DNA from: Kordiimonas sp. SCSIO 12603
Lineage (GTDB): Bacteria; Pseudomonadota; Alphaproteobacteria; Sphingomonadales; Kordiimonadaceae
Assembly: GCF_024398035.1 (NCBI RefSeq)
Contig: NZ_CP073748.1
Span: forward strand, 2,765,520 to 2,829,519
DNA length: 64,000 bases
Direction of reading: 5' to 3'
Part shown: piece by piece, positions 51,766 to 54,004 of the stretch
Layout of the letters: every line of letters begins with the position of its first letter
Numbering within the stretch: position 1 is the first letter of the stretch
Translations under genes and position numbers: made by a program
Notes under the pieces: generated by a model
The model's database searches: none
Told to the model about the DNA's origin: nothing
The model's input: the letters and a program-made list of their open reading frames with translations, nothing else

Positions 51766-52239
51766 TCAATCGTAACCCGGTGGTTTATACCTGTAATAAT
51801 CTACCAGATACTTCTCCGGCGTTGCTTTACCCAGTTCCGTATTCCAATACTGCTTACAGTAATCCGCCATAGCTTCTGTATCATCTTCAACGGGAAGCGC
51901 CTCCGGCACGCGGGCATAGATCATCCGAGCCACCGCACAAGCATAATCATCACTTTCTTCCAGCGCTTCTTTCCTGTCCATATCGTCAGGCAAATAACTA
52001 TCTACAAGCTCCCGGCGTTCAGGTCGGTAGCTCAGGTAATTTTCATAAAGATCATCCAGAGTATTTGGTTCGATCTGAAAGTAAGATCGTGCAGGCCCAC
52101 CAACCTGTGCGCGGTACCGAAACCCGCCACTTTCATGGCAAGCTGTCATCAACAGAACTTTCTCTGCCGATTTAGAATACATGCCCATGTCTTCAAGCAC
52201 GGGACGGATGGTACTCGTCAAGAATTGCTCTGAATTCAT
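51766..52239 (-). CDS. Putative lysozyme/transglycosylase-like protein, phage-type
   Basis: A 157-residue protein without signal peptide. ACHESGGFRYRAQVGGPARS (residues 33-52) followed by YFQIEP has the Glu plus Gly-Gly and downstream FQIEP pattern of goose-lysozyme/transglycosylase-like and phage structural muramidase domains, with Glu35 as candidate catalytic residue. The rest is acidic and helical. I do not recognise an exact family. There is no holin or other phage gene nearby, and the protein lacks a secretion signal, so it may be a phage leftover. It lies just outside the tRNA-Leu mini-island. Confidence 0.6.
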   Translation of the reverse strand: MNSEQFLTSTIRPVLEDMGMYSKSAEKVLLMTACHESGGFRYRAQVGGPARSYFQIEPNTLDDLYENYLSYRPERRELVDSYLPDDMDRKEALEESDDYACAVARMIYARVPEALPVEDDTEAMADYCKQYWNTELGKATPEKYLVDYYRYKPPGYD

Positions 52240-52304: not shown

Positions 52305-52322
52305 TTGGTACCCGCAGCCGGA
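52305..52322. repeat. Distal attachment-site copy
   Basis: 18 bp identical to the tRNA-Leu 3' end, in direct orientation; the rest of the tRNA is absent here. This is the expected partner site left by integration into a tRNA gene. Confidence 0.75.
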
Positions 52323-52413
52323 AAAGTAAGTTGTTTAAATTCAATAAGTTACTGATATATGTAGCAAATTCGGTGCACAAAAATCACTCATTTCACAGAA
52401 AAGTTTAGTATCT

Positions 52414-53661
52414 TCACTCACTTGGAGGAGGGAAATTATTAAAGCCTTCCGGCCTGGATGCACCCAAGGCCTCAAAAACACCTTCATAAATTTGTAACAG
52501 AGCCTGATTCAAAGCAACATCTGATGCGTCTTCTACAAAAGTATCAATGACTACATGATCATCATATATAGGTCCGACGCGTGTATGATTCCCTGTAAAC
52601 ATCATCACATCTTCAGCATCACTAATGCCAGCCTGTATAAATATCTTTTCCCCATACCCCAAGCAACCACGAGCTGCCTCTATATAACTACATAAGCTCT
52701 CTCTAATTGCGTTTTCAAAGGATATACCCGGAAAATGACGATCAAACCTAGGGTCTCTATCACGAAAAAGGAAAGGATTAACTCCCCAAACTTCCCCATT
52801 TGTTAACACTTGAGTAGCAGCAAGTATATTTTCGCGTGCTTGGTCAGTAGATATCAGAAGTGTGCCAAACTTATTCCTAGCAAAACTCCAACCTCCAAGC
52901 CCCGATGCACCTAAAGGGCTTAATTTTAGCTTTTGAAAATCTTGAATTACCTCAATAGATGGACGCTGAATTTCCCGATCCGGCCAGATTCTCAAATACA
53001 TCATAGTACCACTAGGTACCAGAATCTTACTTGATGCATGGCGAGAACTTGGACTCATTAAAACATCATCACCCTTATGCCAATACGCCGCTGGCGAAAT
53101 TGGGGAGATTATTCGTTGGTGCTCCTTGTACTCTACCACTTCTCCCCTTCTAAGATATTCGGCAAATATCATTTGCAACTGACCAACTAACTTTTCCTTA
53201 CATTCTCTACGCTCACGTTTAGTGCAATCCGGCGCAAGCAAGTACTGAAGCGGCCATCTTCGATGCTGTAGATCAAAGGGCAAACCATCAGCTTCACCAA
53301 AAAAAGTATTCATAACTTTGACCAGTATTTCGTCACCTTGACATCCAATGGCATAGCCCAGCTCTACAGCTACATTACTATTGATTGACTTCTTACCTAG
53401 TGGAGTTTCACCAGTGAGCGTAACATCAGCTAAAAAAATAGAAGCCTCTCTAATCTTGGCAAAAATAGTATCTGCAATAGAAGGCGCACCCAACACGCCT
53501 TTCGTATCTTGATCTAACTCCGGCCTCTCCGCTTCGCTGAACTCCTGTTCCTTGATAAGTTGAGTAATTGCCTGCTCTGCAGCCTCGCGGATCAATTGTC
53601 GGTTTACGCGATCATCGGTATCTGATTGCCATGAGTAAAATATCTTCACTGTCACCCCCAT
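52414..53661 (-). CDS. TIR-like nucleotide-hydrolase/effector protein, probable defence gene
   Basis: A 415-residue protein. Residues 1 to about 160 resemble the TIR-like STIR-clan domain seen in CAP12/Pycsar-type effectors. It has the opening strand VKIFYSWQSDT, the strand SIFLADVTL, and SNVAVELGYAIG with Glu100 at the place of the catalytic NADase glutamate. Residues about 185-415 are an uncharacterised domain that I cannot assign, possibly the sensor. TIR proteins of this kind act in anti-phage defence by cleaving NAD+ when triggered. It is the only gene in the mini-island, with no cyclase, SIR2 or second component beside it. The function is inferred from the domain and the island setting. 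Confidence 0.75.
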   Translation of the reverse strand: MGVTVKIFYSWQSDTDDRVNRQLIREAAEQAITQLIKEQEFSEAERPELDQDTKGVLGAPSIADTIFAKIREASIFLADVTLTGETPLGKKSINSNVAVELGYAIGCQGDEILVKVMNTFFGEADGLPFDLQHRRWPLQYLLAPDCTKRERRECKEKLVGQLQMIFAEYLRRGEVVEYKEHQRIISPISPAAYWHKGDDVLMSPSSRHASSKILVPSGTMMYLRIWPDREIQRPSIEVIQDFQKLKLSPLGASGLGGWSFARNKFGTLLISTDQARENILAATQVLTNGEVWGVNPFLFRDRDPRFDRHFPGISFENAIRESLCSYIEAARGCLGYGEKIFIQAGISDAEDVMMFTGNHTRVGPIYDDHVVIDTFVEDASDVALNQALLQIYEGVFEALGASRPEGFNNFPPPSE

Positions 53662-53916
53662 TCACTAACCACTTATAATGCAAATTTACAACTAACACGC
53701 AAGGGGATTGCCCAGACAGCGCAGTGACAAAATTACATTCCATGGATGCTACTCATGGTGCAGTCTTGTAGCAAATTTGGAGCGCTAGTAAAGTTATCGT
53801 CATACTAGATTTTATAAAAATCTCTTTATTTTCATACACTTAATGTACAAAAAGCACTTCAAGCACTATACCGAAACGGCACAGAAAACTGTTTAAAATC
53901 AATGACTTAAAGGATA

Positions 53917-53934
53917 TTGGTACCCGCAGCCGGA
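53917..53934. repeat. tRNA-proximal attachment-site copy
   Basis: The same 18 bp as at 52305-52322. It covers the tRNA-Leu 3' acceptor strand, discriminator base and encoded CCA, so insertion leaves the tRNA intact. Confidence 0.75.
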
Positions 53935-54004
53935 CTCGAACCGGCACGACCATACGGTCTCAAGATTTTAAGTCTTGTATGTCTACCAATTCCATCATGC
54001 GGGC
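53918..54004 (-). tRNA. tRNA-Leu (UAA)
   Basis: An 87-nt gene on the minus strand. The acceptor arms GCCCGCA and TGCGGGT pair (first pair G-U). The T arm contains GGTTCGAGTCC. The anticodon loop is CTTAAAA, giving anticodon TAA, with stems CAAGA/TCTTG. The long variable arm marks a class II tRNA, and the CCA end is encoded. It reads leucine UUA/UUG codons. It serves as the integration target of the adjacent mini-island. Confidence 0.95.

Follow-up and report, generated by a model that had tools for sequence, protein, structure and literature searches.

How does a single gene come to stand between two copies of a tRNA-Leu 3′ end with no integrase detected beside it? This question was raised by a locus in the window, by which we mean the whole 64,000-nucleotide stretch of the Kordiimonas sp. 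SCSIO 12603 genome analyzed here (NZ_CP073748.1, forward-strand positions 2,765,520 to 2,829,519). The original prediction described a very compact defence cargo, seen either as an island in decay or as a satellite mobilized by another integrase. We examined the boundaries of the unit, the same tRNA locus in related genomes, the encoded protein, and the integrases that might have moved the unit.

Results

The mini-island, including both attachment copies, occupied positions 52305-53934 and was assigned no strand. It was bounded by exact 18-bp direct repeats (TTGGTACCCGCAGCCGGA) at 52305 and 53917, giving a unit of 1,612 bp from start to start; the bases adjoining the 18-mer differed on both sides. 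The tRNA-side copy (53917-53934, plus strand) comprised the 3′ end of the intact tRNA-Leu gene and one additional base, and the distal copy (52305-52322, plus strand), identical to it at 18/18 positions, was a fragment of that 3′ end. The integration target, tRNA-Leu with the anticodon UAA, was located on the minus strand at 53918-54004 and was recognized by ARAGORN and by the Rfam tRNA model (57.2 bits), confirming the predicted identity of the right-hand repeat. When up to one mismatch was allowed, the 18-mer occurred twice in the 3.85-Mb genome, at the two island ends. The GC content was 41.0% in the island and 46.3% in the window. The single long ORF of the unit was a 415-aa gene on the minus strand (52414-53661), and promoter-like sites showed no excess over shuffled sequences.

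Several known kinds of element were considered for this unit. Four inverted pairs were detected in it, none of which connected the two ends; an insertion sequence or MITE was rejected because terminal inverted repeats at both ends were absent. Phage satellites (PICI, P4-like) have their own integrase, replication, or capsid-hijack genes, and this class was rejected because the unit consisted of one gene with no PHROG match. An autonomous tRNA genomic island of the Islander type was also rejected, since an integrase gene was not found within the unit. The 415-aa gene matched no mobility family in Pfam, PADLOC, PHROGs, or NCBIfam, a tblastn search of the unit with 17 recombinase or transposase queries returned chance-level matches only (best E 0.045), and the 10 Phage_integrase matches of the genome all fell outside the window. 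The claim that this 1.6-kb unit has no mobility gene thus withstood both the family scans and the tblastn search.

A precise empty site was found in a genome of the same genus (G016), which aligned with the window at 96.2% identity over 55704-53907 and at 96.8% over 52322-50806 and lacked the island in its entirety. The 157-aa chromosomal neighbour gene behind the island (51766-52239, minus strand) stood directly behind the tRNA in G016. This gene, which adjoined the site in both genomes, strongly matched phrog_3108 (E 1e-43), a family of unknown function. Vertical inheritance was disfavoured by the empty site. An empty site of this kind could also have arisen by excision in G016. At E 1e-8, the TIR gene was detected in none of the 18 other genomes of the genus, several of which are drafts with a completeness of 76-93%. 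Across the order, the same threshold yielded the gene in 4 of 176 genomes, including its own. Relatives carrying the gene at the same place, which the original prediction had named as the observation that would speak against it, were therefore not encountered.

The genus sample comprised 19 genomes including that of the window, 15 of which had a clear tRNA-Leu(UAA) match (at least 89% identity); G002 and G010, which had no tRNA match, and G001 and G012, which had weak ones only, were dropped from the site survey. The DNA behind the tRNA was inspected at all 15 sites, for up to 20 kb or less where contigs ended. A unit bounded by core copies was present at 3/15 sites, namely in the window (1.6 kb), in G003 (2.0 kb), and in G008 (27.85 kb). 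An S24-peptidase-like gene lay within approximately 100 bp of the tRNA at six sites (G006, G007, G013, G014, G015, and G018), and the remaining six (G004, G005, G009, G011, G016, and G017) had other DNA behind the tRNA with no accepted core copy. A core-like repeat in G004, with two mismatches, fell within an amidase-like gene and was not counted. In G009 (L066:287-397), a remnant of a G008-type integrase was observed. The comparison of relatives suggested in the original prediction thus yielded an empty site, other cargo in two genomes, and another gene directly behind the tRNA in 6/15; together with the G016 alignment, it indicates that the site is variable and that the window unit, which its nearest relative lacks, was inserted precisely.

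The G003 unit was a second mini-island with no detected integrase. It carried different cargo, and its core was identical at 16/16 positions (L067:78-93 and 2076-2091). Its ORFs encoded 257, 173, and 89 aa; the first gave sub-cut-off or weak matches only (Pfam DUF3810 and CdvA, PADLOC ZorB at E 0.0038, and two NCBIfam families), and the other two gave no family matches. The gene that comes after this unit directly adjoins the tRNA in G014 and G006. The island in G008 encoded a 324-aa integrase at its far end, where the core matched at 15/16 positions, and contained GGCGTAATTTTGGCGTAAT near both ends; the gene behind the far core was 65% identical over 723 residues to the TonB protein of the window. 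In G021, which belongs to the same family and another genus, the gene for a 325-aa integrase, 47% identical to that of G008, began 177 bp beyond this tRNA. A search of 385 genomes of the class at 1e-40 recovered relatives of the G008 integrase from 15 of them, at 20 loci. A tRNA, of several kinds, was present in the fetched stretch at 12 of these loci, and paired repeats were seen by eye before the gene in many, which is the ordinary plan for such islands.

A more complex arrangement was found in G028, which belongs to the same genus as G021. Here, eight core copies delimited seven tandem islands with a total length of 168.9 kb (L087-L095, G028:C1:1715000-1887000), measuring 16.1, 20.5, 20.5, 18.1, 13.9, 45.6, and 34.3 kb in order. 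None of the four Phage_integrase matches of this genome was inside the array, and tblastn at 1e-4 with the 17 recombinase or transposase queries found nothing there, although a recombinase of another type may have been missed. In blastn comparisons at 1e-10, three of the 21 island pairs shared anything, in each case one stretch of 56-71 bp. Two of these stretches were at island ends, and the third was shared by the end of island 3 and an internal part of island 6, implying that the latter may be composite.

Three of the G028 islands were recovered from G021. Island 3 was covered in the G021 array over 20,231 of 20,438 bp (92.8%) and island 7 over 34,148 of 34,279 bp (88.9%); they are neighbours in that array (L096-L100, L078) and are separated by islands 4 to 6 in G028. 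Island 2 was found outside the G021 array, at approximately 1.57 Mb (20,240 of 20,451 bp, 97.8%), and islands 1, 4, 5, and 6 had no match longer than approximately 115 bp in the compared G021 stretches (approximately 119 and 60 kb). The different placement of islands 2, 3, and 7 in the two genomes suggests that islands arrive, leave, or move whole without an integrase of their own. Deletion or recombination between repeats, or rearrangement, could be a partial cause of the difference in order.

The imperfect repeat just inside the two ends (TGTTTAAATTCAATAAGTTA at 52332 and TGTTTAAAATCAATGACTTA at 53890, identical at 17/20 positions) had been interpreted as a pair of integrase arm sites. The repeat itself was real: when the two end regions were shuffled 400 times under a first-order Markov model, at least 17/20 identity was reached once and at least 16/20 four times. 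The arm role was not upheld. The repeat is instead a motif beside the core that is common to other islands at tRNA-Leu(UAA). Its left copy forms the distal core-flanking motif (52332-52351, plus strand), which reads AACTTATTGA on the minus strand and has a like before the core in the G028 and G021 islands. The right copy overlaps the tRNA-side core-flanking motif (53890-53911, minus strand), in which TTTAAGTCATTGATTTTA (53894-53911) stands 6 bp beyond the tRNA-side core. In G028, TTTAAGTYATTGATTTTA was found 5 bp beyond the core with at most one mismatch at six of the seven island-opening cores and with two mismatches at the seventh, and the eighth core, at the array end, was without this motif. 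On the tRNA side of the G003 unit, the TTTAAGTYATTGATTTTA motif was missing. Across 396 genomes, TTTAAGTYATTGATTTTA occurred with at most one mismatch in 32, compared with two for the reversed control; many of the 32 appeared AT-rich, and these matches may be due to chance. At 12 other motif loci searched for repeats of at least 15 bp, 11 had none and L126 had four short ones, 278 bp apart.

A second repeat pair, absent from the original prediction, was identical at 15/17 positions (TGTAGCAAATTCGGTGC at 52360 and TGTAGCAAATTTGGAGC at 53767). It provides a putative distal arm site (52360-52376, plus strand; reverse complement GCACCGAATTTGCTACA) 56 bp from the core and a putative tRNA-side arm site (53767-53783, plus strand). 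Read in the direction of the tRNA, the arm-like TGCACCGAATTTGC stands 56 bp before the distal core, and TGCGCCAAA was located at the same 56 bp in all seven G028 distal ends and in the G021 end that was measured. A TGTGCACC-type site was seen by eye at a like distance at the distal end of the G003 unit. The tRNA-side arm-like site was at +135 from the core in the window versus +123 in the G021 integrase element. Measured in the same way, the ATG of the TIR gene was at +256 and that of the G021 integrase gene at +177, with the same direction; the TIR gene occupies the place and direction of the integrase gene in the G021 island. In its own genome, the arm sequence was present in only two copies at up to two mismatches. 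Related islands carry a similar site at this 56-bp distance, and an identical 17-mer precedes an integrase gene in a viral contig (described below); the pair at 52360 and 53767 therefore appears to be a better candidate for the arm sites than the 17/20 repeat.

The N-terminal part of the 415-aa protein is likely a TIR domain. In alignments of five (A1) and nine (A2) sequences, an N-terminal block contained invariant residues including Asp79, Asn96, and Glu100. Glu100, which we take to be the catalytic Glu of the TIR domain, is held in a conserved N-V-x-x-E-x-G motif and was invariant in 9/9 sequences. Translation from an alternative GTG start at 53649 would begin with MKIFYSW..., a beginning also seen in some homologues. 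A model of residues 1-180, built on five sequences (pLDDT 78.8), was used in the fold search, and the full-length model (pLDDT 53.8) was left out. The best Foldseek match was TIR-STING (7un8; E 7.5e-6, TM 0.58 by query, 15% identity), and the 11 best matches were all TIR proteins (TIR-STING, SARM1, SPARTA, and TIR-1); lumazine synthase appeared from rank 12, followed by flavoproteins and deoxyribosyltransferases, with E values near 1e-3. The predicted alpha/beta fold and the conserved Glu are consistent with a TIR fold, in agreement with the earlier description of one TIR-like gene between exact 18-bp repeats. The protein resembles TIR-STING (Cap12) and related effectors in this fold and in the motif with Glu100; unlike TIR-STING, it has no recognized STING domain, and its C-terminal part of approximately 230 residues matched no Pfam domain.

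A sequence search of the PDB gave a best E value of 0.052, to an unrelated protein. No homologue was found at E 0.01 among 50,697 phage records, and plasmid homologues occurred in 68 records, all at less than 60% identity. Five of the plasmid records were opened, one of which was without annotation; in two, both Sphingomonas plasmids (L170:3998-6450 and L171:4001-6465), a tyrosine recombinase gene was directly behind the homologue. In a Clostridia contig (L045:2677-5684), a homologue was located between a weakly recognized tyrosine-recombinase-like gene and a tRNA-Leu(UAA).

The original prediction also called for a genome search for an integrase whose attachment site matches; this search came up empty. 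The genome had 10 Phage_integrase matches and, at up to one mismatch, two core copies only, both belonging to the unit. No match to the G008 integrase at 1e-40 or to the L181 integrase described below at 1e-30 was found in the genome, and one resident integrase matched that of G021 weakly (6e-4). With the arm sequence in two copies only and no G008-type integrase, no resident helper integrase was identified. At approximately 158-172 kb and 912-936 kb of the same genome (L080-L083), two like sets of integrase genes were observed near tRNA-Met, perhaps one island present twice.

A helper integrase combining these arms with the tRNA-Leu(UAA) core was not found in the genomes searched. A 14-mer of the arm was present in 5 of 326 genomes of the order, including its own, with four matches elsewhere. 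The 3-kb loci around these four places contained no detected integrase; this was a weak test, since its phmmer part also missed the L181 integrase, and 160 bp on each side were inspected by reading. At one of them (L179), a single 23-residue match was noted (E 0.003).

An arm search of IMG/VR matched three contigs, one of which was useful. In this contig, an identical 17-mer (L181:8213-8229) preceded a tyrosine integrase gene, at a distance of 10 or 43 bp depending on which of its two possible starts is used. The encoded protein contained the arm-DNA-binding domain PF13356 (42.6 bits; cut-off 27) and scored 23.0 with PF00589 (Phage_integrase), below the Pfam cut-off; the core of L181 was, by eye, a tRNA-Lys-like end and not Leu. 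By our estimate, a scan of this size may yield several chance matches, and the 17-mer was therefore weighted solely by its position before an integrase gene. The L181 integrase may represent the kind of enzyme that reads such arms and is not the helper itself. Its relatives were found in 24 of 166 genomes (27 loci), and no like arm was seen by eye in the last 200 bases or so before each of the 27 loci.

Discussion

The unit was inserted precisely at the 3′ end of tRNA-Leu(UAA), contains no detected integrase, and shares its end layout with other islands at this tRNA. The insertion reading of the original prediction was supported by the precise empty site in G016, the one TIR-domain gene, and the lack of a detected integrase. 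We consider it fairly probable that the unit is a minimal CIME-like defence cassette, that is, a non-autonomous att-flanked island in which a complete-looking attP surrounds one cargo gene and the integrase acts in trans. A tyrosine integrase from another element, or one that was once next door, would have joined the circular unit to tRNA-Leu(UAA), and the unit could be excised again whenever such an enzyme is available. A role in defence is predicted for the cargo, which may be a TIR effector that cleaves NAD and kills or arrests the infected cell, with the C-terminal part perhaps serving as the trigger or sensor.

Transfer by an integrase in trans is favoured by the G016 empty site, the restriction of the core to two copies, and the 56-bp arm spacing common to the islands. 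It is further favoured by the use of the same tRNA by the integrase-less G003 unit and the integrase-bearing G008 island, by the differences between the G028 and G021 arrays with no integrase detected in that of G028, by the placement of the TIR gene where G021 carries its integrase gene, and by the 17-mer preceding the L181 integrase gene. This reading is weakened by the lack of a matching helper, by the Lys-like core and sub-cut-off Phage_integrase score of L181, and by the absence of the tRNA-side motif from the G003 unit; the integrase remnant in G009 implies that decay occurs here too. The related islands make a satellite moved in trans plausible without proving it for the window unit.

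Decay is the principal rival: a larger, integrase-bearing island at this tRNA would have lost its integrase and almost every other gene by internal deletion, so that one gene was left between the two att sites, and would now be fixed. The integrase-bearing island of G008 at the same tRNA, the remnant in G009 (37 residues matched, approximately 180 bp behind the tRNA), and the lack of a matching integrase in the genome of the window are in line with such a history. However, the ORF of the unit is in place, as are the core, the flanking motif, and the arm-like site at each end, the family scans and tblastn found no integrase remnant in it, and the unrelated G003 unit is about equal in size. We regard decay as possible but less probable. 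It is highly improbable that the DNA was never mobile, with the repeat stemming from a local tRNA duplication and the gene being native; the repeat is only 18 bp long and the GC content of the island only moderately below that of the window, but the precise absence in G016 already contradicts this explanation, the gene was not detected in any of the 18 other genus genomes searched, and the unit shares an integrase-type end layout with other islands.

A different objection concerns the cargo, whose TIR-like domain might belong to a nucleoside deoxyribosyltransferase-like metabolic enzyme, making the cassette unrelated to defence. In Pfam, Nuc_deoxyrib_tr matched the window protein weakly (E 0.045, 14.3 bits; cut-off 28.8), and two deoxyribosyltransferase structures were among the 50 folds listed. 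The best fold matches are nevertheless TIR domains, and the sole PADLOC match was a TIR effector (E 0.0025). CAP12-PCTIR_TIR (PF10137), which was not listed for the window protein at E 0.1, was the best Pfam match of all three homologues scanned (17.7-21.9 bits, below the cut-off of 24.7). A metabolic enzyme therefore seems unlikely.

Cis-mobilizable elements (CIMEs) keep their att sites and are devoid of integrase and transfer genes, and the definition includes descent from an ICE or IME by gene loss and mobilization by accretion with an integrase-bearing element (PMC5704250). In comparison with this description, the window unit appears to keep attL and attR, as judged from the 18/18 repeat and the empty site; the family scans and tblastn found neither integrase nor transfer genes beside its one gene, and its target is used by integrase-bearing islands. 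Unlike the CIMEs described, it is a single gene in 1.6 kb. No intermediate pointing to descent from an ICE or IME was found, and the genome contained no further core copy; with two of the CIME features in place, we use "CIME-like" rather than CIME. Among the Dehalococcoides ssrA genomic islands, 15 had no integration module (PMC3146451). As in the G028 array, those islands are tandem, are bounded by 3′-end repeats of one RNA gene, and in many cases have no recombinase; however, they depend on a serine recombinase at ssrA, whereas the window unit has a tyrosine-integrase-type arm and core layout at tRNA-Leu(UAA) and stands alone with one gene. Islander-type islands also have a tRNA 3′ fragment marking the far end, and the Islander procedure filters for an integrase gene (PMC4383910), so that units such as that of the window are missed by design. 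The integrase-only defence islands of E. coli likewise carry defence cargo at fixed hotspots with unclear mobility, but they typically still have an integrase or recombinase (PMC10121019). Our literature searches for lone-TIR or integrase-less tRNA islands found nothing. The window unit stands out by its size, by carrying one defence-type gene only, by an attP that looks complete, and by cargo that takes the place of the integrase.

For the family as a whole, we tentatively suggest that tRNA-Leu(UAA) may be an integron-like site, at which integrase-less units of 1.6 to 46 kb with standard attP-like ends are acquired, lost, and rearranged by tyrosine integrases acting in trans; the window unit would be the minimal example, its cargo standing where the integrase gene would be. 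The G028 and G021 arrays make such island exchange testable, and the end layout common to the islands (core, flanking motifs, and an arm 56 bp away) offers a direct route to further units of this kind and to the matching of helper integrases. Since island finders such as Islander require an internal integrase, islands moved in trans go uncounted. Should a lone TIR gene indeed be transferred within an att cassette of 1.6 kb, next to no additional DNA would be needed for the spread of defence genes.
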